A stretch of 41,395 bases of DNA from a virus. Where the stretch lies: IMG/VR virus record IMGVR_UViG_3300023184_000251, positions 1-41,395 of that record; one strand, given 5' to 3'. The stretch's first letter is position 1; each line of letters opens with the position of its first letter. A program made the translations under genes and the position numbers. Of the stretch, positions 1,025-38,593 are shown piece by piece. The notes beneath the pieces are model-generated. The model searched no databases, was not told the DNA's origin, and saw only the letters and a list, made by a program, of their open reading frames with translations.

Positions 1025-1075
1025 TGCCGAGCGTCGTTCAGCCGTTCGGCAGGATTAGAGTGGGCAACCTGCCCA
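1025..1075 (+). promoter_or_regulatory. Structured leader element, copy 1
   Basis: First hairpin: TGCCGAGCG (1025-1033) pairs with CGTTCGGCA (1043-1051), nine pairs with one G-T. It contains the core GCGTCGTTC shared with three other copies at 2110, 37794 and 38549. Second hairpin: TGGGCA (1061-1066) pairs with TGCCCA (1070-1075) over loop ACC. An A/C-rich linker and a GGAG ribosome site (1101-1104) follow, then the ATG at 1111. TAATAC at 1012-1017 could be a -10 box. The element is likely a 5' UTR regulator, or a DNA operator built of GTTC direct repeats. Confidence 0.65.
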
Positions 1076-1110
1076 AGAATAACCAAACATAACCAAACAA
1101 GGAGCAAGCA

Positions 1111-1791
1111 ATGAAAACCCCATCAGCAAGTGTTAGTGAAAGGAAAGTACAGGTATCACCAGCCCATCCAGCATCGCCTAGATTTAGGCTTAGTGATCCA
1201 CCAGCCAAGACAACGCCAAAGCCAAGGGCTGCTTATGTCAAGAAGCCAAAGAAAGTACAAGCATTGGCAGACAAGGCAATCCAGTACCTGTTTGAGAACT
1301 TGGGTGAATGGGCTGTCATTGGCACATACCCAATCCCAAAGAGAAGCACAAAGGCTGGTGCTATCCAAGCAACAAAGGCAAACTATGCCAAAGTATGGTA
1401 CGCACAACAAGTGCTTGACGATGCTTTAGCAGCAGCGATTGCGTATTGCTCAACTTCATACCAAGTTGACAGTCGTATTGATTGGTCAGCCGATGGCAAA
1501 GCCCGTGAGTTGCGCTTTAAGGTTACATACATCCAAGAGCCAGGCGAATACGATAACGGTATGTGTGAGATACACGCCAAGATCGAAAGCGATAACAATT
1601 ACCGTATGGAAAGCGCCATTGCTGATATTGACGCAGAGTTAGACGGTTGGGCTCAGGCTGCTGCCGATAACGATGGCATCAACGAAGTATCGCTTATCGC
1701 AGAGCGAATGGTCAAAGCATCAGGCTTGCGCTTGGATCAAGTGTTGCCACTGGCACTTGGTGAGTGGATGAACACTCGGATATCACAATGA
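1111..1791 (+). CDS. Unknown protein (226 aa) behind leader element 1
   Basis: I do not recognise the family. The start ATG is preceded by AAGGAG at good spacing. Residues 1-50 are basic, Pro/Lys-rich and probably disordered (SPAHPASPRF, PKPRAAYVKKPKK). The rest is a folded alpha/beta-like region with aromatic and charged residues (near 60-175, including a GEWAVIGTYPIP segment and a DSRIDWSADGKARELRFKV segment) and a helical tail. There is no membrane segment. The basic N-terminus could bind nucleic acid. The next gene overlaps by ATGA, so the two are co-translated. Several other frames are open here, but only this one has a ribosome site and a protein-like composition. Confidence 0.85.
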   Translation: MKTPSASVSERKVQVSPAHPASPRFRLSDPPAKTTPKPRAAYVKKPKKVQALADKAIQYLFENLGEWAVIGTYPIPKRSTKAGAIQATKANYAKVWYAQQVLDDALAAAIAYCSTSYQVDSRIDWSADGKARELRFKVTYIQEPGEYDNGMCEIHAKIESDNNYRMESAIADIDAELDGWAQAAADNDGINEVSLIAERMVKASGLRLDQVLPLALGEWMNTRISQ

Positions 1792-1961
1792 ATATCCCAA
1801 AGGCGTTGGCAGCAATCAATGAGATAGAGAGTTGGATAGCAGCAGGTGAAACTGAAGGCTATGACGATAAGTACAACCAACTGTTCTTTCTACAGGATCT
1901 AGTGTTTGAGTTAAAGTCTGCTGTATCCAATGCGTTGACAAACCCCTTGGTTAGCGCATAG
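1788..1961 (+). CDS. Small unknown protein (57 aa)
   Basis: The ATG at 1788 overlaps the previous stop (ATGA). A GTG further upstream (1764) would add eight residues inside the preceding gene and is less likely. The product is acidic and largely helical (KALAAINEIESWIAAGETEG...), with Tyr/Phe/Leu-rich amphipathic helices. It looks like a small partner of the 226-aa protein. No family recognised. Confidence 0.7.
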   Translation: MNIPKALAAINEIESWIAAGETEGYDDKYNQLFFLQDLVFELKSAVSNALTNPLVSA

Positions 1962-1977
1962 AGATACAGAGTAAGGC

Positions 1978-2019
1978 TAGTGATGGTGGTAGTTTGTGGT
2001 TGTCCTACCACCATCATTA
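1978..2019 (+). other. 15-bp hairpin in the 1962-2188 spacer
   Basis: TAGTGATGGTGGTAG (1978-1992) pairs with CTACCACCATCATTA (2005-2019) over a 12-base loop; 14 pairs are Watson-Crick and one is G-T. There is no T-run after it, so it is not a classical intrinsic terminator. It lies immediately after the 57-aa gene and ahead of the SOS-box pair and leader copy 2. It may be a processing or stability element at the end of the upstream transcript. Confidence 0.6.
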
Positions 2020-2082
2020 CGCCCACCACAATCATTGGGCATAGCCCACCAATATCACTCGGCTTACGCTATAGCATATGTA

Positions 2083-2111
2083 CGAACAAGCGTTCGCCGA
2101 ACAAGTGTTTG
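2083..2111. promoter_or_regulatory. Two tandem LexA/SOS-box-like sites
   Basis: CGAACAAGCGTTCG (2083-2096) and CGAACAAGTGTTTG (2098-2111) both match the Gram-positive/actinobacterial LexA pattern CGAAC-RNRY-GTTYG, with one base between them. The first is a perfect dyad of the half site CGAAC. They lie about 80-105 bases before the ATG of the 81-aa gene, right beside leader copy 2. Host LexA binding there would make the gene DNA-damage responsive. A phage regulator with the same half-site is the alternative. Confidence 0.6.
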
Positions 2112-2167
2112 CCTAAGCGAGCGTCGTTCGCCCGTTCGGCAGACTTAGAGTGTCACCACAAGGTGGC
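2110..2167 (+). promoter_or_regulatory. Structured leader element, copy 2
   Basis: The shared core GCGTCGTTC-N2-CCGTTCGGCAG (2121-2142) is followed by TTAGAGTG, nearly as in copy 1. GCC (2111-2113) and GAGCG (2119-2123) can pair with CGTTCGGC (2133-2140) with a five-base bulge. The second hairpin has a different sequence from copy 1 but still pairs: GTCACC (2152-2157) with GGTGGC (2162-2167) over ACAA. That compensated change supports a functional RNA stem. The ribosome site GGAAGG (2175-2180) precedes ATG 2189. Confidence 0.65.
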
Positions 2168-2188
2168 AAGTAACGGAAGGGTAGACTA

Positions 2189-2434
2189 ATGACGGCAACG
2201 CCATTACCTATCGCAACCTTTACAAAAGTTGGCGTAGTTACTGTCGCTGGCAAGGAAAAAGCAATTTGGGGACTACAAGTCTCCATTGACGCTAATCCTG
2301 TCGCTGGTATGACGGTGAACGCTGTCAATCGCTTCGGCGCTTCACAAGTGAAAACACTTGGCGCTCAAGTCATTGACCAGCAACGCGTCAATCTTTTGAC
2401 AGGTGCGATCAGTCTCGTATTCCAAATCGCTTAG
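2189..2434 (+). CDS. Unknown small beta-rich protein (81 aa)
   Basis: The ATG follows GGAAGG at good spacing. The 81-aa product alternates hydrophobic and small polar residues in short strands (for example VGVVTVAGKEKAIWGLQVSI and GAISLVFQIA), with few charges, which suggests a compact beta fold. No signal peptide. No family recognised. It has its own leader element and SOS-like sites upstream and a strong terminator downstream, so it appears to be a monocistronic unit. Confidence 0.75.
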   Translation: MTATPLPIATFTKVGVVTVAGKEKAIWGLQVSIDANPVAGMTVNAVNRFGASQVKTLGAQVIDQQRVNLLTGAISLVFQIA

Positions 2435-2506
2435 GCGATACGGTACGAGCAAGCAATTAGAGCCTGACTTGCGCAGGGTAATCTCTAGTTGCTGTCTTAT
2501 TCACTT

Positions 2507-2554
2507 GCGCTACTCCAGTCGTTAGCAATAGCGACTGGGGTAGTGCCTTTTTTT
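2507..2554 (+). terminator. Strong intrinsic terminator after the 81-aa gene
   Basis: A 15-base stem (2507-2521 with 2532-2546, GCGCTACTCCAGTCG against its complement with two G-T pairs) with a ten-base loop is followed by seven T residues (2548-2554). It closes the accessory block before the structured region and TerL. Confidence 0.9.
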
Positions 2555-2656
2555 GTACCCCGGGGGTATAATAATAACCCTCCTCACCGGTTTGTACATA
2601 TCGATTACCTACCCATAGGTGTTTTATGGGGCCACCAATATATATTGTTTTAGTCA

Positions 2657-2672
2657 TGGTGATATATCACCA
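2657..2672. promoter_or_regulatory. 16-bp perfect palindrome
   Basis: TGGTGATATATCACCA is self-complementary over all 16 bases. The inner GATATATCAC recurs at 5087-5096, upstream of the 1565-aa gene, and GGTGATATATTAC occurs at the capsid promoter (20158-20170). It could be an operator for a dimeric regulator, or partly a promoter -10 region. Confidence 0.45.
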
Positions 2673-2834
2673 GGGGGATGGCCGCTAAAAAAGAAAAACA
2701 AAAAAGAATAAAAAAAAAGAAGCACCCAAAAGACCGAGTAATGCTCCCCCCACGCTTCGGTTCTCCAACCCAGGCCGCCGTAGCTATTCTTTCTAGCCGA
2801 CACCTGTTCTTCTTTCTATTCCCTCACTATGTGT

Positions 2835-2894
2835 GTGAGCATGGGAATCGAACTCCGTTTCCGGTCACGATTAGCCTCCCCACCCGTTGCTCAC
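2835..2894. other. 60-base unit closed by a 7-bp stem, tRNA-like on the - strand
   Basis: GTGAGCA (2835-2841) is the exact complement of TGCTCAC (2888-2894). Read on the - strand, the unit ends with TTCGATTCCCA directly before the closing stem, which recalls a tRNA T-loop followed by a 7-bp acceptor stem. At 60 bases it is too short, the T-stem does not pair properly, and I cannot fold D and anticodon arms. It is either a decayed tRNA-like element or an unrelated hairpin. Confidence 0.35.
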
Positions 2895-2930
2895 TTAACT
2901 ACTTAATGGGGTCTGGCTCTTGGAACTAGC

Positions 2931-2977
2931 TAGTGTGCTGTCTTCCCGACAGGTGTGTTTGTGAGTGTAGCACACTA
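2931..2977. other. Inverted repeat next to the - strand small gene
   Basis: TAGTGTGCT (2931-2939) is complementary to AGCACACTA (2969-2977). Inside it CTGTC (2938-2942) and GACAG (2948-2952) form an alternative hairpin that shares two bases with the outer stem. The right arm overlaps the stop codon of the 36-aa - strand gene, so it may act as that gene's transcript end, although there is no T-run. Confidence 0.45.
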
Positions 2978-3085
2978 TTCCTTGTTTGCGTCTACGTGAA
3001 GCCCTTCTTTAATTTTTTTCTTTCGCCAAGCATCGGCAGCAGCCAACGCATCGGCGAGTAGTTCTTTGTCTGTTAGTTCCTTCAT
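2975..3085 (-). CDS. Possible 36-aa - strand protein, divergent from TerL
   Basis: This is the only plausible - strand gene. It encodes 36 residues beginning MKELTDKELLADALAAADAW and ending VDANKE: a charged amphipathic helix with balanced K/E/D and Ala, unlike random translation. Its ATG is 16 bases from the TerL ATG in the opposite direction. There is no Shine-Dalgarno; TAATAT lies six bases before the ATG, as expected for a leaderless mRNA. Function unknown; perhaps a small regulator. No other evidence of translation. Confidence 0.4.
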   Translation of the reverse strand: MKELTDKELLADALAAADAWRKKKIKEGLHVDANKE

Positions 3086-3093
3086 GGTAAGAT
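3066..3093 (+). promoter_or_regulatory. Candidate leaderless promoter for TerL
   Basis: TTGTCT (3066-3071), a 16-base spacer and TAAGAT (3088-3093) form a weak sigma-70-like pair. Its expected start point falls at about 3100-3102, on the TerL ATG. No ribosome site precedes that ATG, and leaderless mRNAs are common in actinobacteria. The assignment rests on spacing alone. Confidence 0.35.
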
Positions 3094-3101
3094 ATTACTA
3101 C

Positions 3102-5063
3102 ATGAAACAAGGTAAGAGAGCCATCAGTCCGGAAGACAGGGCAATATTTTGGCAAGCACTTCAAACCGGTATGGGTCTCAAGGAATGTGCACGCATGGCT
3201 GGTATCTCCTACCAGACTGCACTGGCATGGAACTCTAAAGCAAAAGCTACAGCTGCACAATTAGACCAAGCAGAGCTTGCGGGTTTGCGCGCAGCCAAGA
3301 CCGGTGGCGGTAATGCACTGGCATTGAACAACATCAATAACAAAGACATGCCCCCTGTTGTTCCCAACGGAAGACTGTCCCCTCGCGCACAGCGTGGTAT
3401 AGAAGACTTCGACTATTTCCGGCGTGTGTACTTGGGCCGTGTGCCCTCTCCATGGCAGGTTGATGCTGCATACAAGATTGTAGAGATGTTGGATCACCCG
3501 GAGAAACAGTTCTGTGTACTCAACGTACCTCCTGGTGCCGGCAAGAGTACCCTGTTCCACGACGTAGCTGTGTGGCAGATAGTAAAGAATCGACACATAC
3601 GTGTAATGATCGGTTCAGTATCACAAACGTTGGCTAAAATGTATAGCCGTCGTATCCGCGAAACGCTCGAAAGAACCGTCCCACTAAAGCCAGACCCAGA
3701 AATGGTGAAGCGTGGACTAGCTGTTGATGCAGAAGCGTGCCTTGCTATTGACTATGGAAGGTTTAAACCACAGAATTTAGGCGCTTTGTGGCGTGCAGAA
3801 GAGTTTGTTGTTGACCAATATGCGGGAGAAGGGCTAGATAACAAGGAACCAACCGTGTCTGCGTACGGTATTGAGTCAGAATTCATTGGTCACCGTGCAG
3901 ATCTGTGCCTATTTGACGACGTAGCCAGCACAGAAAACTCAAAAGAGTCTGTAGGTAGGGACAAACTGCTTGAAAGATGGGATGCAATGGCAGAAGCCCG
4001 TGTAGATCCGGGTGGTTTGCTTGCAGTTATTGGCCAAAGGCTGAGTCCGTTGGACCTTTACGCACATTGTTTGTCCAAAGTGTCGTATGACGCAGAGGAA
4101 GACGAGTCATACACCGGTGAAGACGTTAAAGAACTTGGAAATGAAGAGCCAATTAAGTCGCACAAGTACCATCACCTTATTTACAAAGCGTACTACGAAG
4201 AATTGGACACCGGACCAGCGTCAAGGAAGATGACAGCACCGGCTTGGCCGGAAGGACCACTACTCGAGCCGTTCCGTTTGTCATGGAAAGATCTTTCGTA
4301 CGTCAAACACAACAGTCCAAAGAAGTTCCGAGTTGTTTATCAGCAAGAAGACCTTGCCGACGGTCACTATCTGATCGAACGTGTGTGGGCAACTGGTGGA
4401 ATGGGACCAGATGGAGTTCTGTACCCGGGCTGCATCGACAAAGATCGCCAACCGGGACACATCCCGCACAACTTGGCTCCACCAATTATCAGCATCGCCA
4501 CTGTCGACCCTAGCCCTACTGAGTTTTGGGGTATACAGTGGTGGTTGTACCAACCAGAAACAAATCTTAGGTACCTGGTTGATCTAGCGCGCGTCAAATT
4601 GACCGCAGAGGAGTTACTTGGTTATGACACCGGTTCCAGAGAATATTCGGGCGTTATGGAAGAGTGGCAAAATCGCGCGATGGAAATGGGCTATCCGATA
4701 TCGCACTGGATTGTGGAAGTAAATGCTGCGCAAAGGTTTCTCCTCGCTCATGACTTCGTACGAAAGTGGCAGGCGCTACATTCGGTCAGTGTCATCGCAC
4801 ACACCACGTCACGCAACAAGCTGGATGAGAGTCTAGGCATCGAAGCCCTTCTCCCGCCACTTTGGAGGACGGGGCAAGTAAGACTTCCAACTATGTCGGG
4901 CAGTTGGAAAACGCTTTCTCTTGTTGATGAGATGTCATCTTGGACAAGAGGCAAGAAGCATGGCACCGACTTGGTGATGGCTCACTGGTTTGCCGAGCTT
5001 CATGTTCCGCAAATGATTCAACCAGTACTACCACCAAAGTTGTGGCGTCCAAGCTGGATTTAA
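3102..5063 (+). CDS. terL: Terminase large subunit with N-terminal HTH
   Basis: This is the DNA-packaging motor and headful/cos nuclease, 653 aa from ATG 3102; a TTG at 3066 in the same frame would add 12 unlikely residues. Residues about 8-50 form a helix-turn-helix-like segment (GLKECARMAGISYQTALAW) of the sort usually found in small terminases. The ATPase shows Walker A PPGAGKST (143-150) and a Walker B-like LCLFDD (268-273), where Asp stands in the usual Glu place. A C-terminal RNase-H-like nuclease is suggested by D469 (ATVDPS), E539 (IVEVN) and D623 (GTDLVMA). No separate small subunit is seen nearby, so the HTH may do that job. Confidence 0.9.
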   Translation: MKQGKRAISPEDRAIFWQALQTGMGLKECARMAGISYQTALAWNSKAKATAAQLDQAELAGLRAAKTGGGNALALNNINNKDMPPVVPNGRLSPRAQRGIEDFDYFRRVYLGRVPSPWQVDAAYKIVEMLDHPEKQFCVLNVPPGAGKSTLFHDVAVWQIVKNRHIRVMIGSVSQTLAKMYSRRIRETLERTVPLKPDPEMVKRGLAVDAEACLAIDYGRFKPQNLGALWRAEEFVVDQYAGEGLDNKEPTVSAYGIESEFIGHRADLCLFDDVASTENSKESVGRDKLLERWDAMAEARVDPGGLLAVIGQRLSPLDLYAHCLSKVSYDAEEDESYTGEDVKELGNEEPIKSHKYHHLIYKAYYEELDTGPASRKMTAPAWPEGPLLEPFRLSWKDLSYVKHNSPKKFRVVYQQEDLADGHYLIERVWATGGMGPDGVLYPGCIDKDRQPGHIPHNLAPPIISIATVDPSPTEFWGIQWWLYQPETNLRYLVDLARVKLTAEELLGYDTGSREYSGVMEEWQNRAMEMGYPISHWIVEVNAAQRFLLAHDFVRKWQALHSVSVIAHTTSRNKLDESLGIEALLPPLWRTGQVRLPTMSGSWKTLSLVDEMSSWTRGKKHGTDLVMAHWFAELHVPQMIQPVLPPKLWRPSWI

Positions 5064-5068
5064 TTTTG

Positions 5069-5077
5069 TGGTACTAT
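5069..5077 (+). promoter_or_regulatory. Candidate extended -10 promoter for the virion operon
   Basis: TGG-TACTAT is an extended -10 motif six bases after the TerL stop, in the 52-base gap before the 1565-aa gene. No good -35 is visible. GATATATCAC (5087-5096), half of the palindrome at 2657, lies just downstream. The ribosome site AGGACG (5103-5108) precedes ATG 5116. Confidence 0.35.
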
Positions 5078-5115
5078 GTCGTTACAGATATATCACGAGA
5101 TTAGGACGAATGTAG

Positions 5116-8100
5116 ATGGCAAAAAAGAAGCCTGATCCTGCTGCGGTAGCACAGAGGAAGCAAGAACGCGTCGCCTTTGTTCAAGCACATCCAAATCTTG
5201 CCCCGGAACAAGCACGTCAGCAATTTTATGTTCAAACTCGTACGGAAGAACTCTCTGCTGCAGGTAAGTCGGTAGACAAGCAAGCTCTTCGCGACAAGTT
5301 CCAAAGTGGACAAGTTTCTCGTGAAGGGTTCTACACCCCTGGGGATATAGCTCGGTTTAATACTTCTGGTTCCAACAACGGTGGCAGTCTTGCCGACAGC
5401 AAAAAAGATACCGTTAGTTCGCCAACCAGTCTTACAACTCCTACCGGAGTAAAGATGCCTGCTGCTGGGTATATGGCACCAAAGACAACTACTGCTCTCG
5501 GTCTTGAAGTTACACCAACCACTACAGTGCCTTCTTCTCCGACAACAACTCCAACCACAATACCGGTAACCGACGCACCCCCAAAGACCGTACTTAAAAC
5601 CGGCAACATTTCTGGACCAAACGTGCGCATGGGAACGAAGAAAGCACAACCAACGAAAACACCAGCTCCGGCAGCAACAACCAATGTAACTTGGAATCCA
5701 AATCAAGCACCGCTTAGTTATGGAGTGCCAGATTCCGTTATTGGGATTCCTGGTAAAGATTACAAAACATCCGGCACGGGAGACAAAAATCTTACCGCTT
5801 ACAGTAAACAAAAAGAAAAAAACAGAAAAGAGTTTGGCAATACTTCGGGTTTGATTGCAGAAAATTTAATTACCGGAGCCGCCGCTACTGCTGGTGGTGC
5901 TATTGGTTCTGTGGTTCCTGGAGTTGGAACAACAGTTGGTGCCGTAGTTGGTAGTGCTATTGGTACGGGTCTTGGAAACTTTGCATACAACATGTTTGAC
6001 CCAATTGACACATCAGAGAGTTCTGGTGAAGCAGGTAAAAGAGCTGGAATCTATGGTGCTGTAGATCTAGTCGGCGGTGCAGTAATTTCAGGTGCTTCCA
6101 AGGTAATAGCTCCTCGTGTCGGACCAACATTAGGCAAAGTATTTAACAAAGTGCTTGGTCCAAACACAGACGACGCTGTAAACGCAATTGATTATTCGCC
6201 GTTCGCCCGAGATATGAACGTCCCCCGAACATCATCAGCTGTTGATCCCATTGCTCGACAACAAGCAGCAGACGCCGCAACAAAACAACCAAAGGTTATT
6301 ACAAAAATTCAATCAACCATTACAAAAATTCAAAACAACCGTAGGGGATACACGCCTAAAATTGCTCCTTGGGCAGATGATGCCGCATCAGCTGAAACAT
6401 TTTACAGGACTCCATTAGGTGACCTAAAAAGTAGCAATGCTCCTCTTGGCGAAATTCGTGCTCCAAAGTTTGAGCGTATGCCGGAAACAGTTGAAACACC
6501 AAAGCCACTTACTAGTGCAGACAGAATGGAAAACGCTGCTGCCGTAGTAGCAAAAAACAGCGAAACTAAACCACCGGTAGCACAAGCAGTTGACCCAAAC
6601 CCATCGTTGCATGCTTCTAAGCAAGCAGAAATGCAAGCTGCAGTGCCGGAAACTTCTACAATCGAAGTACGTACAAAAGATACTTTGCCAGCAACCAAAG
6701 CGCCAAAAGCAAATACGCGTAAGCCAAGAGCAAAAAAAGAACCAGTAGTTGAACAACCAAAACCAATAATTGAGACATCGTCTGGTGCTACAGCTCCTCG
6801 CGATTTTGCTGCAGAATACAGAGCAAAAACAGCAGCGGAAGATTTTGAATACGATCAAGGACTTACCGACTGGGTAAACAACAATCCAAAAGAAACAGAT
6901 GACATTCTTTATGATGTGTTTTTTAATGGTTCCGGAGGGGGAAAAACAGATTTAAATAATTTGTCTGGCATATCCGGACAAAGGGTTTCTCGTTCAGATC
7001 TATTTGATGGCAATCGTTTTGGACGTAGATCGCCAATGGACCGCGGCATGTTTATTGAAGATGCCGGTGCACAACCGGTTGGCAATCTAAATCCAACTCC
7101 AGCCCCAGCAGCAAACATCCGCGAACATAAAGGCATCAGGTACACGGTTGACCCAAGCAACCCAATGATAGGCATAGAAGAAGGTACTGGGGTACAGTTT
7201 ACCTTGCGTAAAACCAAATCCGGCAAGCCAGGCACGCCTCACTTTGATGGAGTAGACGTTGCTACCGGAAAACCTAAACTTCGTACGCCAAGAACAAAAT
7301 TTGCCAATGCTACTGAACGTAAAGCTGCAGAAAAAGCTGCAGAACAAACAAGAACCGCTGCAACGTCAACCAAAAGAGCTGAGGGCGCTGTGACAACAGA
7401 ACAAGCTCTTAAAGCAGCCCAAGAAAAAGCAAATGCTGGAAAAGTAGTAACACAGGGAGAATTCCCAACAGCACCAAAACTACGCGGCAAGAAGTTGCAG
7501 CAGTATAACCGCGATGTTGCTTCGGGTAAAATACAACCGGAAGAACCATTTGTTTATTCAGTTAAGGAAGTAACGGAAAAGCCGGTAATTGGGGAAGGTT
7601 CAATGCCTCGCAAGCCAGTAACTTCCTTGGGTACTACAAAAGCACCGACAAAAACAATGGACATTGAAACGTTTAAAAAACTGAGCGACGATATGTTCAA
7701 TCGTTCCAATGCACAGTTATCAGACCTTGCTGACAGTCGTGTAGCCAACGCACAATATGATGCCATTGTTGCTGAGTATGGAAAAGATTCAGTAGACAAA
7801 ATTATTAAATCCGTTCGTTTCCGTCAACAAGTTGCCGATAAAAAACTCTTTGCCGGAGAACTTAACGACGTAATGGGCGCTGGACAAAGAGAAGCTCTAC
7901 AAAAGGCAAATGATTTAGCCGACGCAAGATCGTACGCAGATTGGTTCTCATCACGAGAAGCACAACAAATGAGGGTAGACAATCCTGCACTGTTTTCCGA
8001 AATTGTAAACAAGCCGGAAAATGTTGCTAAAAGAGCACTGATTACAAAGACAACAAACTCTGATGTGGCTAGCACTATGCCGCGTAGTTTCCGTCAATCC

Positions 8101-31172: not shown

Positions 31173-31700
31173 ATGGCGTACCCTGTTGTACCGGTCAAAC
31201 TGTGTAGTCACCTAAAAGGTGCCGTTCCAGGCAAATTAGCTGCAGAAAAACTACGCCAAACCGTAGGTGGCACACTCCACCATTGTGCTGCTGACGCTTG
31301 GGAAGCAATGGTAGAAGCAGCAAGCGTAGCTGGTATCAAATTGAGACCGACCAGCAGCGGCGACACATATCGCACACTGGAATTACAAACCAAAGCATTT
31401 TTTTTAAGGTACCAACTAGAAGACACCGGCAACCCAGACACACGCACCTTTGAGGGCAAGAAGTGGTACCTCAAAAAAGGTCAAGCTTGTTTGGCTACAC
31501 CGGGTAAGTCCCAGCACAACCTTGGCATTGCCGTAGATGTGGCTAACGCTAAGGGTCACACGCTGGATTGGATGCTAGCCAACGAACACCTGTTCGGTTT
31601 CTCACATGAGGTTCAATCAGAGCCGTGGCACATTCGATACACCCAGGGAAACAAAGTTCCGGCTGCAGTTGTAGCGCACCTAGCTACGAAAGCCGTATGA
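31173..31700 (+). CDS. Endolysin, VanY/M15 peptidase (175 aa)
   Basis: Cuts peptidoglycan stem peptides (D-Ala-D-Ala carboxypeptidase/endopeptidase family). S113-x-H115...D122 in 'SQHNLGIAVDV' and W152-H153 in 'EPWHIRY' are the zinc ligand motifs of the family; the Glu before W is the likely catalytic base. The first ~60 residues are helical and may help wall binding. No signal peptide, so it depends on a holin. The length of 175 aa suits a single-domain endolysin. Confidence 0.9.
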   Translation: MAYPVVPVKLCSHLKGAVPGKLAAEKLRQTVGGTLHHCAADAWEAMVEAASVAGIKLRPTSSGDTYRTLELQTKAFFLRYQLEDTGNPDTRTFEGKKWYLKKGQACLATPGKSQHNLGIAVDVANAKGHTLDWMLANEHLFGFSHEVQSEPWHIRYTQGNKVPAAVVAHLATKAV

Positions 31701-31701
31701 C

Positions 31702-31908: not shown

Positions 31909-32078
31909 TAGTTGCAATTTCTTTTTTTATCTGATTGACTGGAGGCCGGGGGGTGGGGCGGAGGCAATCCCTTCAATCGGTTCCAGATATGCACACAAAG
32001 TGTGCCCCCTCCCAACCAACAGAAAAGCCTAACGTGTAGCCATTTAAGGACAAGTCTGCTACACTGCGGATAACAGTG

Positions 32079-32111: not shown

Positions 32112-32171
32112 ACTGTCTGGGTTGAGGTGGGCCTCCTTCGTCGGGTTGGAGGTTCATCTCCCCGGGTCATT

Positions 32172-32199
32172 GCATCTTGATGCGTCATGATGTATCATG
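32172..32199. promoter_or_regulatory. Pair of dyads before the early operon
   Basis: GCATC-TT-GATGC (32172-32183) and CATGAT-GT-ATCATG (32186-32199) are two perfect inverted repeats, each with a two-base centre, separated by two bases. They lie 28-55 bases before ATG 32227, which suggests an operator for a dimeric repressor of the early genes. Confidence 0.45.
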
Positions 32200-32226
32200 G
32201 TTGTATCGCTACACAACGGAGGACAA

Positions 32227-32481: not shown

Positions 32482-33491
32482 CCAGCGAATTCAACGAGGT
32501 GCTCAGCCAATCAGAAGAAATCATTGAGCTACGAAAAGCCCTAAAAACAGCACAGCTTGCAACAGCAAGAGCTCAACGCAAAACTGCTGACAACATTGAG
32601 GCCGTATATAGGGCAGCAAAAGATGCCAGTCTTGCCACCGGCAAACCACCAAAGTTCCCGGTATACAAAATGACTAAGGGAAAAAACCCTGAAGTAGCAT
32701 TAGTCCACGCAACCGATTGGCAGCTTGGTAAGCGAACAGCAGATTATGGAGTAATTACATGCCGTACACGCATAGACCAGTTAGTGACGAAGGTCCTTTC
32801 TCTGACAGAAATTCAAAGGTCGCACCATCCGGTGAACGAGTGCGTAGTTATGTTTGGGGGAGACATGGTGGAAGGCGTTGGTATTTTTCCGGGCCAAGCG
32901 TATGAAATTGAAGCACACTTATTCACACAGCTGTTTGAAGTTGCCGGGATTATGGAGTCAATGCTTCAACGACTTAGCGCGCACTTTACCAAGGTGCATG
33001 TTGTGTGTGAGTTTGGAAACCATGGTCGATTGGGTCGCAAAGGTGACATGCCATCAGGCGACAACATCGACAGAATGGCCTACCAAATTACATCGGAGCG
33101 AACAAAGGATCTCAAAAATGTTACTTGGCAGATGTCAAATGACTGGTACCAGATCGTTGAAATAGGAAACTACAGAGCTCTTTTGGTGCACGGAGACGAG
33201 ATCAACTCATTCGGTGGTAGTACGCCGGCCTTTGGAATCTTGCGCAAGTGCAACGCTTGGTCAACCGGTGTTGTTGAGCCGTTCCAAGATGTGTACATGG
33301 GTCACTGGCACACACCAATGACACTGACCATGGCAAATGCAGGAAGAATCTTTGTTACCGGCAGCACAGAGTCACACTCTGAGTACGCCCGTGCGTTTAT
33401 AGCTGCAGTGGGCAAACCATCACAGCGACTTCACTTTATTGATCCGAACAAAGGTCGCGTTACTGCGGAGTACACATGTTGGCTGGACTAA
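32478..33491 (+). CDS. Metallophosphoesterase (337 aa)
   Basis: Calcineurin-type fold: D80-x-Q82 (HATDWQLG), GGD 127-129 (FGGDMVEG), GNH 180-182, HGD 238-240 and GHWH 275-278 are the ordered metal-binding motifs. The first motif has Gln where D-x-H is usual. The N-terminal 60 residues are a charged helix. The longer reading from 32187 would overlap the HTH gene entirely and start without a ribosome site, so I use the ATGA overlap at 32478. Such phage enzymes sit beside recombination nucleases and may act on nucleic acid ends or nucleotides; substrate unknown. Confidence 0.8.
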   Translation: MTSEFNEVLSQSEEIIELRKALKTAQLATARAQRKTADNIEAVYRAAKDASLATGKPPKFPVYKMTKGKNPEVALVHATDWQLGKRTADYGVITCRTRIDQLVTKVLSLTEIQRSHHPVNECVVMFGGDMVEGVGIFPGQAYEIEAHLFTQLFEVAGIMESMLQRLSAHFTKVHVVCEFGNHGRLGRKGDMPSGDNIDRMAYQITSERTKDLKNVTWQMSNDWYQIVEIGNYRALLVHGDEINSFGGSTPAFGILRKCNAWSTGVVEPFQDVYMGHWHTPMTLTMANAGRIFVTGSTESHSEYARAFIAAVGKPSQRLHFIDPNKGRVTAEYTCWLD

Positions 33492-33796
33492 ACAGACACA
33501 CAGTAGAACCGTGGACCTTACTGGAAGTGACATGGAGAGATGCATATGATGCAGAAAATGGGTGGACCGCAGTGTCCACATACAAACCGGAAGATCAAAT
33601 AGCGCGAACCGTTGGCTACATATGGAAAGATTGCCAAGAACACTACATCACTTTGTGCGGAACAATGTTTGATTCCGAGTTGCCAAAGGTGGAGACGGTA
33701 GGTAACGTGACACACATACCAATTGCAATGATTCAATCAGTTCGGATACTTAAACAAAGGAGAAATTATGAACGGGTACAGATACACGATCGTTAA
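33476..33796 (+). CDS. Unknown phage protein (106 aa)
   Basis: Starts inside the end of the phosphoesterase gene (16-base overlap) and overlaps the exonuclease start by 29 bases. Small, aromatic-rich ('LLEVTWRDAYDAENGWTAVSTY', 'ARTVGYIWKDCQEHYITLCGT', 'VTHIPIAMIQSVRILKQRRN'): a probable compact beta barrel. Small proteins with 'VTWxDA' and 'xGyi' segments recur in recombination modules of actinophages. Function unknown. Confidence 0.7.
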   Translation: MLAGLNRHTVEPWTLLEVTWRDAYDAENGWTAVSTYKPEDQIARTVGYIWKDCQEHYITLCGTMFDSELPKVETVGNVTHIPIAMIQSVRILKQRRNYERVQIHDR

Positions 33797-34718
33797 ACCA
33801 ACCCACGGAAGCCAAGAGTGGCTGACGGCGCGTTGGAAAGATGAAGACGGGCTTGCCCGCATAACCGCGTCGGTTGCTGCAGCAGTTCACGGGGAAAACC
33901 CGTATATGACGACAGCCGATCTTGCGATCGAACTTCTCGCCGAGAACGCGCCCACACCAAAAGAAGCAAACATGGCAATGGAGCGCGGGAACAGACTTGA
34001 ACCTGTTTTAATTGAGTGGTTCGCCGACCTTGAACATATAGAGGTGTCGACACCGGACGTTCTTTACGCGTTTAACACGGACGGAAACTCAGTCCGGTTG
34101 CTTGCAACACTTGACGGTATAACACCGGACGGCATTCCAGTTGAGATCAAAACATCCAAGAAGATGTGGACTGGTTCACTTCCCCCGATGTGGTATTGGC
34201 AGGGAGTCCATCAAGCAATCTGTGCAGACTCAGACAGGGTTGAGTGGGGTATCTTTGACAGCAACCTAGAGTTGCACCGCCACACGCAGGTAGTTACATC
34301 AGACGAAAAACAAAACCATATTGCTGCTTGCCAAGAGTTCCTTGGTTATATTGACGCAGGTGTGGTACCACCAAACGCACAGATGAGTTACGAAAACGCA
34401 AGCTACCTCAACCCATCAAACTCATCCACCGCAGAGTTGCCTGAAACTTTTGTTGTGGTGTTGGAATTATTGGAAACAGCTCGTACTCTTAAAACGGAGG
34501 CAGCTGCTTTGGAGGAGCACGCAAAGACCGAGATAGCAATGGCCCTCAAGGGCTGTGATGTCGGCTCAATAAACGGAGATAAGGTGGTTACTTGGAAAGT
34601 CTCAAAGAAATCATCGTTCGACACTACAAGGTTCCAGTCGGAACACCCAGCTCTAGCAGAAAAATACATCAAGCAGACAGAGTACAGAACAATAAGAACA
34701 ACAAAAAGGAGCAAATAA
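33768..34718 (+). CDS. YqaJ-type recombination exonuclease (316 aa)
   Basis: A 5'-3' exonuclease of the lambda-Exo/YqaJ fold that makes single-stranded DNA for annealing. E78 (ERGNRLEP), D116 (ATLDGIT), E126-x-K128 (VEIKTSK) and Q145 (WQGVHQA) match the PD-(D/E)xK catalytic set and the following helix. Ends in a basic Lys/Thr tail. Followed after two bases by an annealing-like gene, a classic pair. AGGAG lies about nine bases before the ATG. Confidence 0.85.
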   Translation: MNGYRYTIVKPTHGSQEWLTARWKDEDGLARITASVAAAVHGENPYMTTADLAIELLAENAPTPKEANMAMERGNRLEPVLIEWFADLEHIEVSTPDVLYAFNTDGNSVRLLATLDGITPDGIPVEIKTSKKMWTGSLPPMWYWQGVHQAICADSDRVEWGIFDSNLELHRHTQVVTSDEKQNHIAACQEFLGYIDAGVVPPNAQMSYENASYLNPSNSSTAELPETFVVVLELLETARTLKTEAAALEEHAKTEIAMALKGCDVGSINGDKVVTWKVSKKSSFDTTRFQSEHPALAEKYIKQTEYRTIRTTKRSK

Positions 34719-34720
34719 CA

Positions 34721-35377
34721 ATGGCACACTTCAACTTAGATAATTACGAGACAGTCGAAGATCGACTTGTTAAGTTTTGGCACGATCATCCGGATGGTCG
34801 CATTGCAACAATGATGGAAGACATCACCGCCGACAAGTCAATGGTCGTCTTTCGTTGCGATGTCTACTTTCATGCAGATGACCACAAAGCAAAAGCAAGT
34901 GGCTACGCCGAAGAAACACGGAACAGCAGTCCGGTTAATAAAACTTCCTTTGTGGAAAACTGCGAAACCTCGGCAATTGGCAGAGCCCTAGCCAACTGTG
35001 GCTACGCAGCCAAGGGTTCACGCCCTAGTCGCGAAGAGATGGAGAAAGTGCAACGAGCACCACAAGCAGCAGCACCACAGTTCACCTCAGCACAGGTAGT
35101 CAGTATGTTTGAGGGATCGGCAGAAGTTGCAGCAAAGCCAGCACCGGTCATCAAAAACCCTGGAGCCGGTGCATCACCGAAGCAGGTTGGACTCATCAAG
35201 TCCATCATCAGAGGCCAAGGAATGACAGAAGCAGAGGGCAACGAGTACGCCGGCGTAGTTGTTGGTCGGGCCATTACTTCTCTTAATGACATTTCAATGG
35301 GAGAAGCTAGCCAACTGATTACAGCACTCAAAGCAGTGCCAGTTACACCAGCATCACCACCCGAAGATCCTTTCTGA
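34721..35377 (+). CDS. Annealing/Erf-like recombination protein (218 aa)
   Basis: ATG 34721 has AAAGGAG upstream. The core 'RIATMMEDITADKSMVVFRCDVYFH', 'ASGYAEETRNSSPVNKTSFVENCETSAIGRALANCGYAAKGSRPSREEM' is the pattern of phage Erf-type single-strand annealing proteins ('ETSAIGRAL...'). A Pro/Ala linker leads to a small C-terminal domain 'GASPKQVGLIKSIIRGQGM...ITALKAVP'. Partner of the YqaJ nuclease in the adjacent gene. It could also act on single-stranded DNA in replication. Confidence 0.65.
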   Translation: MAHFNLDNYETVEDRLVKFWHDHPDGRIATMMEDITADKSMVVFRCDVYFHADDHKAKASGYAEETRNSSPVNKTSFVENCETSAIGRALANCGYAAKGSRPSREEMEKVQRAPQAAAPQFTSAQVVSMFEGSAEVAAKPAPVIKNPGAGASPKQVGLIKSIIRGQGMTEAEGNEYAGVVVGRAITSLNDISMGEASQLITALKAVPVTPASPPEDPF

Positions 35378-35547
35378 TGCGCACCATCCAGTGTCAAAAA
35401 TGTGCTTCTCTGATCAGGAGTAATGGTTTGACACTGGTTGGCTGTCTTTGTGATCCGGACAGTCCAACATGGATTGCGCTTAGACCTGATGAAAGACTTA
35501 TGCTTGGCAGTCACGCCGACTGGAAGGAAATTCATGAACATTCATGA
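35377..35547 (+). CDS. Small Cys-rich protein (56 aa)
   Basis: TGATG overlap with the previous stop, so coupled. Contains C6-x-x-C9 and C23-x-C25 in a short chain, likely a zinc ribbon. The rest is Asp/Trp/Arg-rich (DPDSPTWIALRPDERLML). Short of 60 codons but with good overlap spacing, so I take it as real. Confidence 0.6.
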   Translation: MRTIQCQKCASLIRSNGLTLVGCLCDPDSPTWIALRPDERLMLGSHADWKEIHEHS

Positions 35548-35698
35548 GTGGATAGAGTACGGAATAAAAAACAAGTTTTGTTCTGCAGCTGTGTGCAACA
35601 CACACGAAGGTTTACCGCAATCGGACAAAGAACTTGATGAGTGGGATCAAGGCGGAGATCCATGCGTGTATGGATTAAGGTTGTATGAGCAAGAGTAA
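35534..35698 (+). CDS. Small zinc-binding-type protein (54 aa)
   Basis: ATG 35534 with GGAAGGAAA in front; the longer frame upstream lacks a ribosome site. 'NIHEWIEYGIKNKFCSAAVCNTHEGLPQSDKEL' and 'GGDPCVYGLRLYE' carry C-x5-C, H and C, a pattern known in many actinophages for a small protein of unknown role. Overlaps both neighbours by 14 bases. Confidence 0.75.
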   Translation: MNIHEWIEYGIKNKFCSAAVCNTHEGLPQSDKELDEWDQGGDPCVYGLRLYEQE

Positions 35699-36023
35699 AG
35701 CCAAAGGCACAGCATTCGAAACATTGATTGTTGGTTACCTTAAAGCTACCTATCCAAACGTAGAGCGCAGAACACTCAGTGGTGTGCACGACAAAGGTGA
35801 TATAGCCGGTACAAACAAAAGGCTTGTTTGGGAGTGCAAAGATCACAAGACCTTGAACTTTTCAGGCTGGCTAAAAGAAGCCGAAGTAGAGAGAGGAAAT
35901 GCCAACGCAGAATACGGTATCGTTGTTGCCAAACGACGTGGACACGGAGATGCCGGGGCACAGTATGCTGTGCTTACGTTAGAAGCTTTGGTGCAATTAC
36001 TTAAGAAAGCTGGTCTAGTTTGA
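35685..36023 (+). CDS. Resolvase-like PD-(D/E)xK nuclease (112 aa)
   Basis: Residues E12, D39 (KGDIAG) and E50-C-K52 (WECKDHK) match the catalytic set of archaeal Hjc/VRR-type nucleases, with a basic, Gly-rich later part ('KRRGHGDAGAQYAVLTLEAL'). It lies after recombination genes, so a Holliday-junction or branch-cutting enzyme is likely. The length of 112 aa is right for the family. AAGG site before ATG 35685; overlaps previous gene. Confidence 0.75.
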   Translation: MSKSKAKGTAFETLIVGYLKATYPNVERRTLSGVHDKGDIAGTNKRLVWECKDHKTLNFSGWLKEAEVERGNANAEYGIVVAKRRGHGDAGAQYAVLTLEALVQLLKKAGLV

Positions 36024-36041
36024 TAAACTCGGAGGAATCAA

Positions 36042-36455
36042 ATGAAACGACTTACTGTTATAGCCATATCCTTGATCATGTCGGTTATGCCATCGGGCCA
36101 TGCTCATGCTGCGAAAAAATCAGGCTTGTGTCCACAATGGCGAGAGCTTGCGCTGTCTGTAGGGTGGCGCATCCAGAACCTTTCTACATTAGATATATTG
36201 ATGCACCGCGAGTCAAGGTGCCGGCCTGGTGCGCTGAACTCTACATTAAATCGAGACGGCTCCTCGGACTATGGCCTTATGCAAATCAACGACAAAACAT
36301 GGTGTTTGCCGAGCAAGTACGCGTTCAAGGGGTACCTACAGGCGCAAAAAATACTCAAAGATTGCAACGAGCTTCTTATCCCGGCAGTCAATCTAATGGC
36401 AGCACTAGCAGTGTACGAAGCAGCGGGCAATAGTTTTAGCCCATGGGGAGAGTAA
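36042..36455 (+). CDS. Secreted lysozyme-like transglycosylase (137 aa)
   Basis: The start has CGGAGGAA just upstream, much better than the overlapping 137-aa frame at 36020. Residues 1-23 form a signal peptide (KRLTVIAISLIM...AHA). After it, E57 in 'LMHRESRCRPGA' is the catalytic Glu of SLT/lysozyme folds, 'SSDYGLMQIN' (74-83) the substrate-side motif, and the end 'LAVYEAAGNSFSPWGE' fits. C30, C60, C88 and C108 could make disulfides outside the cell. It cuts glycan strands. Its place in the early module, far from the lysis cassette, suggests a role other than final lysis, such as secretion of an anti-superinfection lysin. Confidence 0.8.
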   Translation: MKRLTVIAISLIMSVMPSGHAHAAKKSGLCPQWRELALSVGWRIQNLSTLDILMHRESRCRPGALNSTLNRDGSSDYGLMQINDKTWCLPSKYAFKGYLQAQKILKDCNELLIPAVNLMAALAVYEAAGNSFSPWGE

Positions 36456-36499
36456 AGAAACCTCAGCAGACTAAGCAACAACGGAACAAGGAGCTGTCA

Positions 36500-36775
36500 A
36501 TGGAGATATTAAGTTCCTGGTCACTTAAGAACAAAAGCTGGGAATGGCGAGAAGATGCTGCTTGTTTGGGCATGACCGGAGACATTTTTTTTGGCAAGCT
36601 TGGCTACAACCAAAAGCACATTGATGCAGCAAAAGCCGTGTGTAAATCATGCACGGTTAAGCGCGCCTGTTTGGAATATGCAAACGACAACGTGATGACA
36701 CACGGTGTGTGGGGTGGCAAAACACCTGCTGAAAGGCTTGTGTTGCTTGGGTTAAAGCGTTGGCCGGTGTCATGA
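36500..36775 (+). CDS. WhiB-family regulator (91 aa)
   Basis: Fe-S transcription modulator. C22, C48-x-x-C51, C57 with 'GVWGG' (69-73) are the cluster ligands and turn of the Wbl family, which exists only in actinobacteria and their phages. ATG 36500 has AAGGAG six bases ahead; a start at 36443 would add 19 residues and lacks a ribosome site. Wbl proteins bind sigma factor region 4, so this one probably redirects the host polymerase. Overlaps next gene by ATGA. Confidence 0.9.
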   Translation: MEILSSWSLKNKSWEWREDAACLGMTGDIFFGKLGYNQKHIDAAKAVCKSCTVKRACLEYANDNVMTHGVWGGKTPAERLVLLGLKRWPVS

Positions 36776-36906
36776 TACCAACACGGGTACTGGCTGATGC
36801 GATACGCTTATTAGAGAAGACCTGGGTTGGTGCTTCTGACACAGACGTACTAATCCATGTAATAACCGAATTCCGCAAGGAATTGGCTACAAGGAGCAAG
36901 AAATGA
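36772..36906 (+). CDS. Small helical protein (44 aa)
   Basis: ATGA overlap at both ends. A helical, mixed-charge 44-residue chain (IPTRVLADAIRLLEKTWVG..., ending RSKK). Operon position and overlap support it; no family. Confidence 0.6.
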   Translation: MIPTRVLADAIRLLEKTWVGASDTDVLIHVITEFRKELATRSKK

Positions 36907-37106
36907 GCGAAGAAGAGCAGTTCTTAAGTCAGGTAAGCATGGACTTACAGGTGGCCCTAGACAGGCTTCGAGAAGAAAAAGCTCTGCTATCTGCAGAATT
37001 AGCCCAACGACACCAGGCATACGCCGAAGCACTTGATATCATCAAAGAGCAAAACTCCGTAATTGACCGACTACGGATACACATACAACAGGGAGTAGAA
37101 CTATGA
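36903..37106 (+). CDS. Coiled-coil protein (67 aa)
   Basis: AAGGAG lies at good spacing before the ATG. The whole chain is one long heptad-like helix (SMDLQVALDRLREEKALLSAELAQRHQAYAEA...). May be an adaptor or oligomer scaffold for its neighbours. Next gene overlaps by ATGA. Confidence 0.7.
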   Translation: MSEEEQFLSQVSMDLQVALDRLREEKALLSAELAQRHQAYAEALDIIKEQNSVIDRLRIHIQQGVEL

Positions 37107-37504
37107 AACCAATGTACATTGAGCTATTTGTGGACAGGCTGTGTGGCTTTTTCCCCAAAGACAACATTGCCAGGAACACAGTAAAAAAAGCTTGGCTGCA
37201 CGACGAGTACCTCCTACTTAACGTGGAGGAAGAGGAAGTCAAAGCTGCTTTAGCCACACTTGAGGCAGATAAATCGTTTCCTAGCCTGCACAGGGTTAAA
37301 GAAGTGTTCCGTGCCGGCCGCAAAGGCAAGATGGATGCCATTACAAACAACTGTGATGTTTGTGGTGGAACTGGATGGGACAGCGGAGAACGCTGGGAAG
37401 AAATAGACGGCGCATACGTTGTAACCACGCCAAAGTTGACACAACTTGGTATTTTGGGTGACACACAAAGTTATGTCAAAAAATGCGAGGACTGTTTGGT
37501 ATGA
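37103..37504 (+). CDS. Zinc-ribbon protein, possible replication accessory (133 aa)
   Basis: N-terminal ~75 residues are helical ('YIELFVDRLCGFFPKDNIARNTVKKAWL...LEADKSFPSLHRVKEVFR'), followed by 'CDVCGGTGWDSGE' and 'CEDCLV', a DnaJ-like CxxCxGxGW...CxxC zinc ribbon. Similar two-part proteins near phage replication genes may be helicase loaders or initiators; that is only a guess. Overlaps by ATGA on both sides. Confidence 0.7.
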   Translation: MKPMYIELFVDRLCGFFPKDNIARNTVKKAWLHDEYLLLNVEEEEVKAALATLEADKSFPSLHRVKEVFRAGRKGKMDAITNNCDVCGGTGWDSGERWEEIDGAYVVTTPKLTQLGILGDTQSYVKKCEDCLV

Positions 37505-37677
37505 CCAACTGGCAATGCCCTAAATGTGGAGATAGGATCACTACACACATCAAAACATACCCACCGGTATGTCACAATCAATATAATCATTCCCGCAACG
37601 GAGAAACAATGGAGGAAGTACATGAGCCAGCCAAGCGTAACCGTATTGAAAGAACTGATCTCGGAAGTACTGAATAA
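37501..37677 (+). CDS. Zinc-ribbon protein (58 aa)
   Basis: ATGA overlap start. 'WQCPKCGDRITTHIKTYPPVCHNQ' is the small phage zinc-ribbon pattern (CxxCG...THI...PPxCH). The tail is charged. Reads 56 bases into the following gene, so the two share sequence in different frames. Could be a transcription or host-takeover factor. Confidence 0.65.
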   Translation: MTNWQCPKCGDRITTHIKTYPPVCHNQYNHSRNGETMEEVHEPAKRNRIERTDLGSTE

Positions 37678-37795
37678 CACCAACGAGGCAGCAAGAGATG
37701 TAGCAAGAGAAGCAGCAATACACATGGCATCACAGCTAACCAAAGCTGAGGTTGACGAGGCAATGCACGATATTAGCCTCACCCTAAGCCTCTAG
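37622..37795 (+). CDS. Small helical protein ending the early operon (57 aa)
   Basis: GGAGGAA at 37611-37617 and ATG 37622 decide the start; upstream in-frame starts lack such a site. Starts SQPSVTVLKELISEVLNNTN and is helical and acidic (AREAAIHMASQLTKAEVDEAMHD). Its stop nearly touches leader element copy 3. Confidence 0.6.
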   Translation: MSQPSVTVLKELISEVLNNTNEAARDVAREAAIHMASQLTKAEVDEAMHDISLTLSL

Positions 37796-37843
37796 CCGGC
37801 GTCGTTCGGCCGTTCGGCACGATGACAACGGCGGGATTCCGCC
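37794..37843 (+). promoter_or_regulatory. Structured leader element, copy 3
   Basis: Core GGCGTCGTTCGGCCGTTCGGCA (in 37798-37819; shared GCGTCGTTC at 37799-37808) with GCCG (37795-37798) able to pair with CGGC (37815-37818). Second hairpin: GGCGG (37830-37834) with CCGCC (37839-37843) over GATT, a third sequence version of the same stem position. AAAGGAG and ATG 37863 follow. No clear promoter before it; it sits right at the end of the upstream gene, so it may be inside the early transcript. Confidence 0.6.
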
Positions 37844-37862
37844 ACAAACAAAGGAGCAGTAC

Positions 37863-38429
37863 ATGACAGAGCCAGGAACACAAGAATACTTTCTAGCCGC
37901 ATACGGTGAGATAGAGAGACAGCTATCAGCCGGCCCACGCACAGGTAAAGATACCTATCTGTATGCCATTGTTGCTAAACAGGCAAATTCAGCCTTAACC
38001 GGAGAGCTTGTCGATGCAGCTGACGAAGATGCAATCATGGCAATACCAATTGCATCCGATGGCAACATATCCCACCTGCTGGAGTCAGAGTTTCTTTCAG
38101 TAGTAGCGTTTACAACGCCGGGACTAACAGCAACAGCAATTAGGTTCGGTGCGTATGCTGGATTGGGAGGCTCAACAAACGTTGAGATCATGTTATTCAA
38201 CAACACATCCGGCTACATGTATGCGTACGTCAGGACTCTTGGTACCGGTCAAGTAACTAGCAGTGTGATAGATATCAGCAGCGATGAGTTTGTTACCAAC
38301 ACACCGGGCAGGCTATTAGCTGCATTCTCGGACATGCCGTACCACATGATTGAGAATAATTTCGAAGAGTATGCGCAATTGCGTGACCAGGTTGTGTCTA
38401 CGTTTTCCGAATTCTACGCTACGGAGTAG
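37863..38429 (+). CDS. Unknown protein (188 aa) behind leader element 3
   Basis: Good AAAGGAG before the ATG. The start is helical (TEPGTQEYFLAAYGEIERQL), then mixed alpha/beta regions with Gly turns ('ATAIRFGAYAGLGGSTNVEIMLFNNTSGYMYAYVRTLGTG') and a helical acidic end (FEEYAQLRDQVVSTFSEFYATE). No membrane helix. No family recognised. First of the accessory block by map order. Confidence 0.8.
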   Translation: MTEPGTQEYFLAAYGEIERQLSAGPRTGKDTYLYAIVAKQANSALTGELVDAADEDAIMAIPIASDGNISHLLESEFLSVVAFTTPGLTATAIRFGAYAGLGGSTNVEIMLFNNTSGYMYAYVRTLGTGQVTSSVIDISSDEFVTNTPGRLLAAFSDMPYHMIENNFEEYAQLRDQVVSTFSEFYATE

Positions 38430-38460
38430 CCACCACCACCACCACCACCACCACCACCAC
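38430..38460. repeat. (CCA)10 microsatellite
   Basis: Thirty-one bases of CCA repeats directly after the 188-aa gene stop, continuing as a degenerate CCA tract to about 38473. If read as coding in a shifted frame it would be poly-His, which I reject. Other spacers near the leader elements also carry short CCA runs (921-929, 2007-2013). Confidence 0.9.
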
Positions 38461-38476
38461 TGCCACCACTGCCATC

Positions 38477-38511
38477 ACTACCCCTCAAGCATTAGTTTGG
38501 GGGGTAGTTTT
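38477..38511 (+). terminator. Intrinsic terminator after the 188-aa gene
   Basis: ACTACCCCTCAAG (38477-38489) pairs with TTTGGGGGGTAGT (38496-38508), 13 pairs with two G-T, loop of six, followed by TTTT (38508-38511). It separates the 188-aa unit from the MoxR-vWA operon. Confidence 0.85.
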
Positions 38512-38548
38512 GCGTTATGGCTTAATACTGTAATGCACTACTTGGGGG

Positions 38549-38593
38549 GCGTCGTTCGTCGGGTCGGCAGACTGAAAGTGGGCAACCTGCCCA
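38549..38593 (+). promoter_or_regulatory. Structured leader element, copy 4 (MoxR-vWA operon)
   Basis: Core GCGTCGTTCGTCGGGTCGGCAG (in 38549-38570), then ACTGAAAGTG and the second hairpin TGGGCA (38579-38584) with TGCCCA (38588-38593), identical to copy 1. The first hairpin has lost its left arm here. A TAATAC box (38523-38528) like that of copy 1 lies upstream, and GGGAG precedes ATG 38622. It stands before the whole MoxR-vWA operon. Confidence 0.65.

Follow-up and report, generated by a model that had tools for sequence, protein, structure and literature searches.

What is the short element that stands four times in a virus record of IMG/VR (IMGVR_UViG_3300023184_000251; its 41,395 bases are called the window here), each time just ahead of an accessory gene? 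The original prediction, made from the sequence alone, described it as a structured leader with two hairpins that could co-ordinate a regulon by protein binding or translational control. Our analysis leads to another answer, held with reasonable confidence: each copy is probably a phage promoter that runs directly into the 5' end of the transcript it drives, and the four would form a co-regulated family whose mRNAs carry protective 5'-terminal stem-loops.

The four copies are real. The 9-mer GCGTCGTTC has exactly four occurrences in the window (1031, 2121, 37799 and 38549), all on the + strand, and a 21-base block (GCGTCGTTCNNNNNNTCGGCA, up to 3 mismatches) matches the same four sites only, with no match in 100 dinucleotide shuffles. 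The layout of the shared block is GCGTCGTTC-N6-TCGG-CANNNT. The second hairpins that had been described are present behind all four blocks, and in each copy a ribosome site follows, then an ATG 33–49 bases past the predicted first transcribed base (+1). The parts of the copies are as follows.

1031..1039, + strand: copy 1, conserved 9-mer GCGTCGTTC, at -31 to -23 of the predicted start
1050..1055, + strand: copy 1, -10-like hexamer CAGGAT, aligned with CATACT/TATACT/TATAAT of relatives
1061..1075, + strand: copy 1, predicted 5'-terminal hairpin TGGGCA-ACC-TGCCCA, predicted +1 at about 1062
2121..2129, + strand: copy 2, conserved 9-mer GCGTCGTTC
2140..2145, + strand: copy 2, -10-like hexamer CAGACT
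2151..2168, + strand: copy 2, predicted 5'-terminal hairpin TGTCACC-ACAA-GGTGGCA, predicted +1 at about 2152
37799..37807, + strand: copy 3, conserved 9-mer GCGTCGTTC
37818..37823, + strand: copy 3, -10-like hexamer CACGAT
37830..37843, + strand: copy 3, predicted 5'-terminal hairpin GGCGG-GATT-CCGCC, predicted +1 at 37830
38549..38557, + strand: copy 4, conserved 9-mer GCGTCGTTC
38568..38573, + strand: copy 4, -10-like hexamer CAGACT, directly preceded by GTTCGTCGGGTCGG, which also stands directly ahead of a -10 hexamer (TATACT) in the relative L100
38579..38593, + strand: copy 4, predicted 5'-terminal hairpin TGGGCA-ACC-TGCCCA, predicted +1 at about 38580

The copies had been called dispersed, which is misleading. 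The ends of the window overlap by 339 bases (41057-41395 versus 1-339; 97% identity, 329/339), so that on the closed map the copies follow one another in the order 37799, 38549, 1031, 2121, all within about 5.5 kb. The overlap contains 10 mismatches, six of which fall at 181–203, and reflects either a circular map assembled from strains that differ slightly or a terminal repeat with imperfect copies.

The same arrangement is observed ahead of the same genes in related phages, in contrast to the absence of further copies that would have spoken against the element. Searching with the 451-aa protein of the operon behind copy 4 (called vWA here after the original prediction; its family, phrog_33218, has no assigned function) gave three near-identical contigs carrying copies of the same element, one of them a short contig that holds two. 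A terminase search gave 80 loci at 69–99% identity, about 25 of them with the MoxR module, and among these the window block was found in the close relative L013 only, plus one match with 4 mismatches in L078. Repeated blocks in relatives therefore had to be looked for genome by genome. A second set of relatives, obtained with a profile of 14 vWA proteins, includes L095–L100 and L102 (53–62% vWA identity). These seven carry an analogous block ahead of the same genes, ending in CAGACT, CATACT, CAAACT, TAAACT, TACGAT, TATACT or TATAAT, and in L096, L097, L099 and L100 the block is repeated three or four times ahead of homologous genes. In all, the layout is kept in about twenty related phages with almost no letters in common. 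Host genomes, in which further copies had also been expected, yielded 14 scattered single matches in unrelated bacteria, as chance predicts.

The block itself looks like promoter DNA and not like part of an RNA leader. We observe a -10 pattern with A at -11 and T at -7 in all four copies (CANNNT, 4/4) and in 21/21 close elements (YANNNT), where the searches in relatives had fixed the first two hexamer letters only (A at -11 fixed, T at -7 free). The hexamers are CAGACT, CATACT and CAAACT in L096; TAAACT, CAAACT and CACAAT in L097; TACGAT, TACGCT and TAAAAT in L099; and TATAAT, TATACT and CATACT in L100. In a profile of the 21 elements, T at -7, C at -30 and G at -14 are each found in 21/21 and T at -25 in 19/21, with T predominant from -26 to -24. 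Such a pattern resembles a sigma-A -10 hexamer combined with an upstream motif near -26, lacking the ordinary -35 site; indeed, a -35 TTGACA at a spacing of 16–18 bp was not found before the four copies. The more distant L036 and L032 have TTGAC at the usual -35 distance. An alternative -10 hexamer, TAGAGT in copies 1 and 2, was rejected, as it is not kept in copies 3 and 4 or in relatives. Among other phages, L034 (4326, 8834), L040 (3702, 8243), L026 and L037 have repeated promoters with TTGAC 13 bases before the -10-like hexamer and not 23, that is, one helical turn shorter, which leaves their -35 region ambiguous; in L034 and L040 a C-run/G-run inverted repeat adjoins the TTGAC.

The second hairpin is predicted to begin at the first transcribed base. 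Folding z scores were computed from frames of 28–30 bases slid along the elements. Folded from 5 bases past the -10 hexamer, the window copies have a mean z of -2.5 (4/4 below -1), and 20 elements of relatives, picked by repeated sequence alone with no regard to hairpins, have a mean of -1.48 at the same frame start (14/20 below -1), with z near 0 upstream and downstream. The same peak is seen in 27 promoters selected by eye from 14 more distant relatives; together with the window's four, these 31 hand-picked promoters have a mean z of -2.2 (27/31 below -1). An independent set of vWA loci, processed automatically with a regular expression, gave 11 leaders with a mean z of -1.32 versus -0.32 at other sites, a supportive but small sample. 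The first of the two proposed hairpins (CCGTTCGGCA) has a z near 0 and so no folding signal as RNA. Transcription starting downstream of the hairpins had been named as an outcome that would undo the prediction, and of the two hairpins this probably applies to the first only.

The position of the second hairpin is observed to follow the hexamer. Strong hairpins start 4–8 bases past it in 15/18 cases, compared with at most 2 when the anchors are moved, and in the window the distance from hexamer to hairpin is 5, 5, 5 and 6 bases, while that from hairpin to ATG is 19, 20, 28 and 35. A spacing fixed to the hexamer and variable to the ATG ties the hairpin to the transcription start and not to the ribosome site, so that a function at the 5' end fits better than translational control. 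Relative to the predicted start, the hairpin lies near the mRNA 5' end in 4/4 copies. When the search was anchored on the hairpin instead, -10 hexamers were weakly enriched in a crude set of leaders and found in 14/43 of a better set (shuffle mean 6, maximum 13).

We also observe that pairing is maintained while the letters change. For the elements of relatives, own arms pair at -8.12 kcal/mol versus -4.62 kcal/mol for swapped arms, and 0/10,000 permutations reach the observed pairing; with the folded segments moved by 15 or 30 bases the effect is absent. Ahead of the homologues of the 81-aa gene, for example, the stems are GTCACC/GGTGGC in the window, GTGAGG/CCTCAC in L096 and L097, GTGGC/GCCAC in L099 and GTCGGA/TCCGAC in L100. 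The compensated change claimed originally thus stands across genomes but not from the four window copies alone, for which 789/10,000 arm swaps are as good, partly because copies 1 and 4 share one stem. Selection of the second hairpin for pairing, not for sequence, is therefore supported.

Block and hairpin evolve in two different modes. Within genomes the blocks have an identity of 0.89, and between genomes one of 0.51 (0/2000 shuffles); for the hairpin region the two values are 0.35 and 0.34. Being alike within a genome and unlike between genomes, the blocks evolve concertedly, which would fit a single trans-acting protein that reads all four; the hairpin appears free to change as long as pairing persists.

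Taken together, we propose that CANNNT would serve as the -10 hexamer for host RNA polymerase carrying a sigma-A-type factor. GCGTCGTTC, at -31 to -23, would stand in for the -35 contact and is probably read by an activator, whose recognition sequence would have evolved jointly with the four blocks of each phage genome. The transcription start would be 6–7 bases past the hexamer, where the second inverted repeat begins, so that the mRNA would open with a stem-loop of 5–7 bp, followed by an unstructured A-rich leader, the ribosome site and the ATG. The 5' hairpin would most likely shield the mRNA from nucleases of the RNase E or J type, which need a free single-stranded 5' end. A more specific version is offered tentatively, as a possibility: the activator may be phage-encoded and replace the sigma-A -35 contact at the four promoters, with its specificity changing along with the blocks in each lineage so as to give each phage its promoter dialect, and with the +1 hairpin kept by selection for pairing alone. 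What stands of the original prediction is a shared regulatory element for accessory operons; what does not is the whole element as one RNA leader, given a block that has no folding signal and ends in a -10-like hexamer.

Several results weigh against this proposal. The window hexamers (CANNNT) are poor matches to TATAAT, and a generic sigma-70 scan did not report them; the transcription start is itself predicted from sequence. Three elements of relatives have a weak hairpin or none (L099 at 4686, L100 at 222 and L106 at 3908). The high block identity within genomes is partly guaranteed by the way the elements were found, while the difference between genomes at homologous places is not. Counting G.U wobbles as a sign of RNA over DNA pairing gave a negative result (16 G.T versus 27 A.C). 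A block-free scan for YANNNT plus a hairpin before a start codon did not exceed reversed sequence (5 versus 7 and 10 versus 16 matches), so that the architecture stands out only at sites flagged by the block. Finally, no activator came out of the analysis, and WhiB is present also in relatives in which no element turned up.

Four other explanations were weighed. The one that survives best, though we consider it unlikely, accepts the block as a promoter and gives the hairpin another task: to bind an antitermination factor or RNA-binding factor of the phage, to signal an early pause or anti-pause, or to keep the ribosome site open. Specific control of this kind would suit an element carried by only four operons, and a hairpin at +1 does leave the polymerase early. 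The free variation of stem and loop sequences (identity 0.35) disfavours a sequence-specific binder, however, and the ribosome site lies outside the stem. Antitermination sites of the put type are larger and have two stem-loops.

In the reading of the original prediction, the whole 50–60 bases act as a cis-regulatory RNA, either resembling a riboswitch or serving as the target of a translational repressor, with transcription starting further upstream. We regard this as improbable. The block is well conserved within a genome and lies just ahead of the ATG, and the second hairpin is selected for pairing, all of which would suit such an RNA. Yet no folding signal is seen in the block, its final hexamer is -10-like (A and T invariant; TATAAT in L100), and copy 3 begins only 3 bases past the stop codon of the preceding gene. 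With the hairpin tied to the hexamer and not to the ATG, translational control or a riboswitch-like role becomes less likely. A search of Rfam above the gathering score gave 0 matches in the window and in L096, L097, L099 and L100, and a whole-element RNA family was rejected on this ground; in agreement with the earlier statement that no named element has this form, neither an Rfam family nor a named phage element matched.

About as improbable is that the palindrome at +1 acts as DNA, either as a repressor operator or as an extruded hairpin like those of the phage N4 virion-polymerase promoters. The 6-bp stems and 3-base loops of copies 1 and 4 do resemble N4 promoter hairpins, and the wobble counts showed no preference for RNA. 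But an operator would keep its letters, which here change, and the N4 hairpin lies upstream of the start while the hairpin here begins at the predicted start. No RNA-polymerase family was found among the products searched, those of 1565 and 1684 aa included, and an N4-like DNA hairpin promoter was rejected for this reason. That the copies are functionless repeats, recently copied with accessory genes and with hairpins arising by chance, is very hard to believe: the entire hairpin and its flanks are common to copies 1 and 4, as after duplication or conversion, but the same four places are occupied in genomes with about 60% vWA identity, pairing is kept with other letters, and the folding, arm-swap and hairpin-position results contradict it.

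Returning to the promoter-plus-hairpin reading, the element serves four accessory transcription units, including the MoxR-vWA operon as first described. They are listed below.

1111..1791, + strand: gene of copy 1, 226 aa, with distant homologues behind the same leader in L096, L097 and L100
2189..2434, + strand: gene of copy 2, 81 aa, followed by a terminator-like hairpin (2507-2546)
37863..38429, + strand: gene of copy 3, 188 aa, followed by a terminator-like hairpin (38477-38508) that lies ahead of copy 4
38622..41201, + strand: operon of copy 4, encoding a 156-aa conserved protein, a MoxR-type AAA ATPase (39094-39846) and the 451-aa phrog_33218 protein (39846-41201)

Across the joint of the closed map, a 233-aa gene at 145-846 continues the operon of copy 4. 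Family searches of the served products gave no known-family match except for the MoxR ATPase and the vWA protein (phrog_33218). The family of the 156-aa protein (38622-39092 and relatives) adjoins MoxR and vWA in many phages and has invariant D-Y, GWA-P, S, R, R and G; its AlphaFold model (pLDDT 86) has no PDB match below an E value of 0.001. Long inverted repeats lie upstream of copy 1 (917-985) and of copy 2 (1978-2019) (CCACCACCATCACATAGCA...TGCTATGTGGTGG; TAGTGATGGTGGTAG...CTACCACCATCATTA), possibly terminators or processing sites that have no T run.

Upstream of copy 2 there is a further feature:

2083..2111, + strand: two tandem palindromes, CGAACAAGCGTTCG (2083-2096) and CGAACAAGTGTTTG (2098-2111), at -69 to -56 and -54 to -41 of copy 2

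They resemble SOS boxes of the actinobacterial type (CGAACNNNNGTTYG), and copy 2 alone may be a LexA-controlled promoter. The window contains 5 strand-matches to SOS-like boxes versus 0.13 expected, none of them near copies 1, 3 and 4. A perfect CGAACACCTGTTCG box lies at 31583-31596, within the gene of a 175-aa product that has a PHROG tape-measure match and a weak VanY-like one. Palindromes of the CGAACNNNNGTTYG type are also found in L036 (3507, 7789, 8256), L032 (4623, 8444, 8920), L034 (8800) and L040 (8208), and in L036 and L032 they lie exactly at -50 to -37 of six promoters. Such palindromes may make these phage promoters responsive to DNA damage.

The phage carries WhiB (36443-36775), an indication of actinobacteria, and its terminase shares about 25% identity with the terminases of Streptomyces phages and Planktophila phage E7; its host group is most likely aquatic actinobacteria. 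If our reading is true, it supplies a sequence rule by which promoters and transcript 5' ends can be located throughout a large group of uncultivated phages, together with a natural collection of some 50 hairpins, largely unrelated to one another and all fixed at the 5' terminus, with which the role of 5' structure in actinobacterial mRNA survival becomes testable. It would also join the MoxR operon and three other genes in one regulon, and the concerted change of the four blocks in each genome points to a specific regulator.

Among known systems, 5'-terminal stem-loops stabilise bacterial mRNA in the ompA, papA and aprE leaders, as described in PMC3997798 (which cites Emory 1992, Bouvet 1992, Bricker 1999 and Hambraeus 2002) and in a review (PMC7509114). 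Like the phage element, these leaders have a small stem-loop at the very 5' end, then an unpaired leader and a ribosome site, and by analogy the phage module may stabilise its mRNAs too; unlike them, the phage hairpin is a repeated module tied to one promoter family, its position kept across phages while its letters change. The T7 gene 10 transcript likewise has a stem-loop at +1, an AT-rich leader and a ribosome site, and is made by the phage's own polymerase from an invariant promoter. No phage polymerase was found among the window products searched. The RecA-NDp consensus, which we take to be TTGTCRGTG-N8-TANNNT, gave 76 matches in the window (up to 3 mismatches) versus 71 expected and none at the four blocks, and PafBC/RecA-NDp promoters were rejected as the identity of the element. 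The likeness to them is one of type: in mycobacteria PafBC is an activator that replaces the -35 contact at -26 promoters (sigma adaptation; PMC11804915), and at those promoters too a motif near -26 accompanies the sigma-A -10 hexamer, the usual -35 site being absent. In cluster K mycobacteriophages, start-associated sequences (SAS; 13 bp, at translation starts) and their extended forms (ESAS) are short repeats ahead of a subset of genes (PMC3203893); the consensus of their inverted repeats varies from one phage group to another. In contrast, the window repeat is a promoter-like block whose inverted repeat lies downstream and has no consensus; SAS/ESAS was rejected, as GGGATAGGAGCCC has 3 matches (2–3 mismatches) in the window versus 4.9 expected and none at the four starts. 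Planktophila phage E7 (OX376640), an isolated freshwater actinophage with the related terminase, is reported to have a whiB-like gene and a sigma-70 gene (PMC10202952), and our search found no repeated leader block of this kind in it. The element is no new class of RNA; it is a conserved promoter-plus-5'-hairpin module of a group of uncultivated phages, a variation on sigma-A promoters, 5'-terminal stem-loops and the start-associated repeats of phages.

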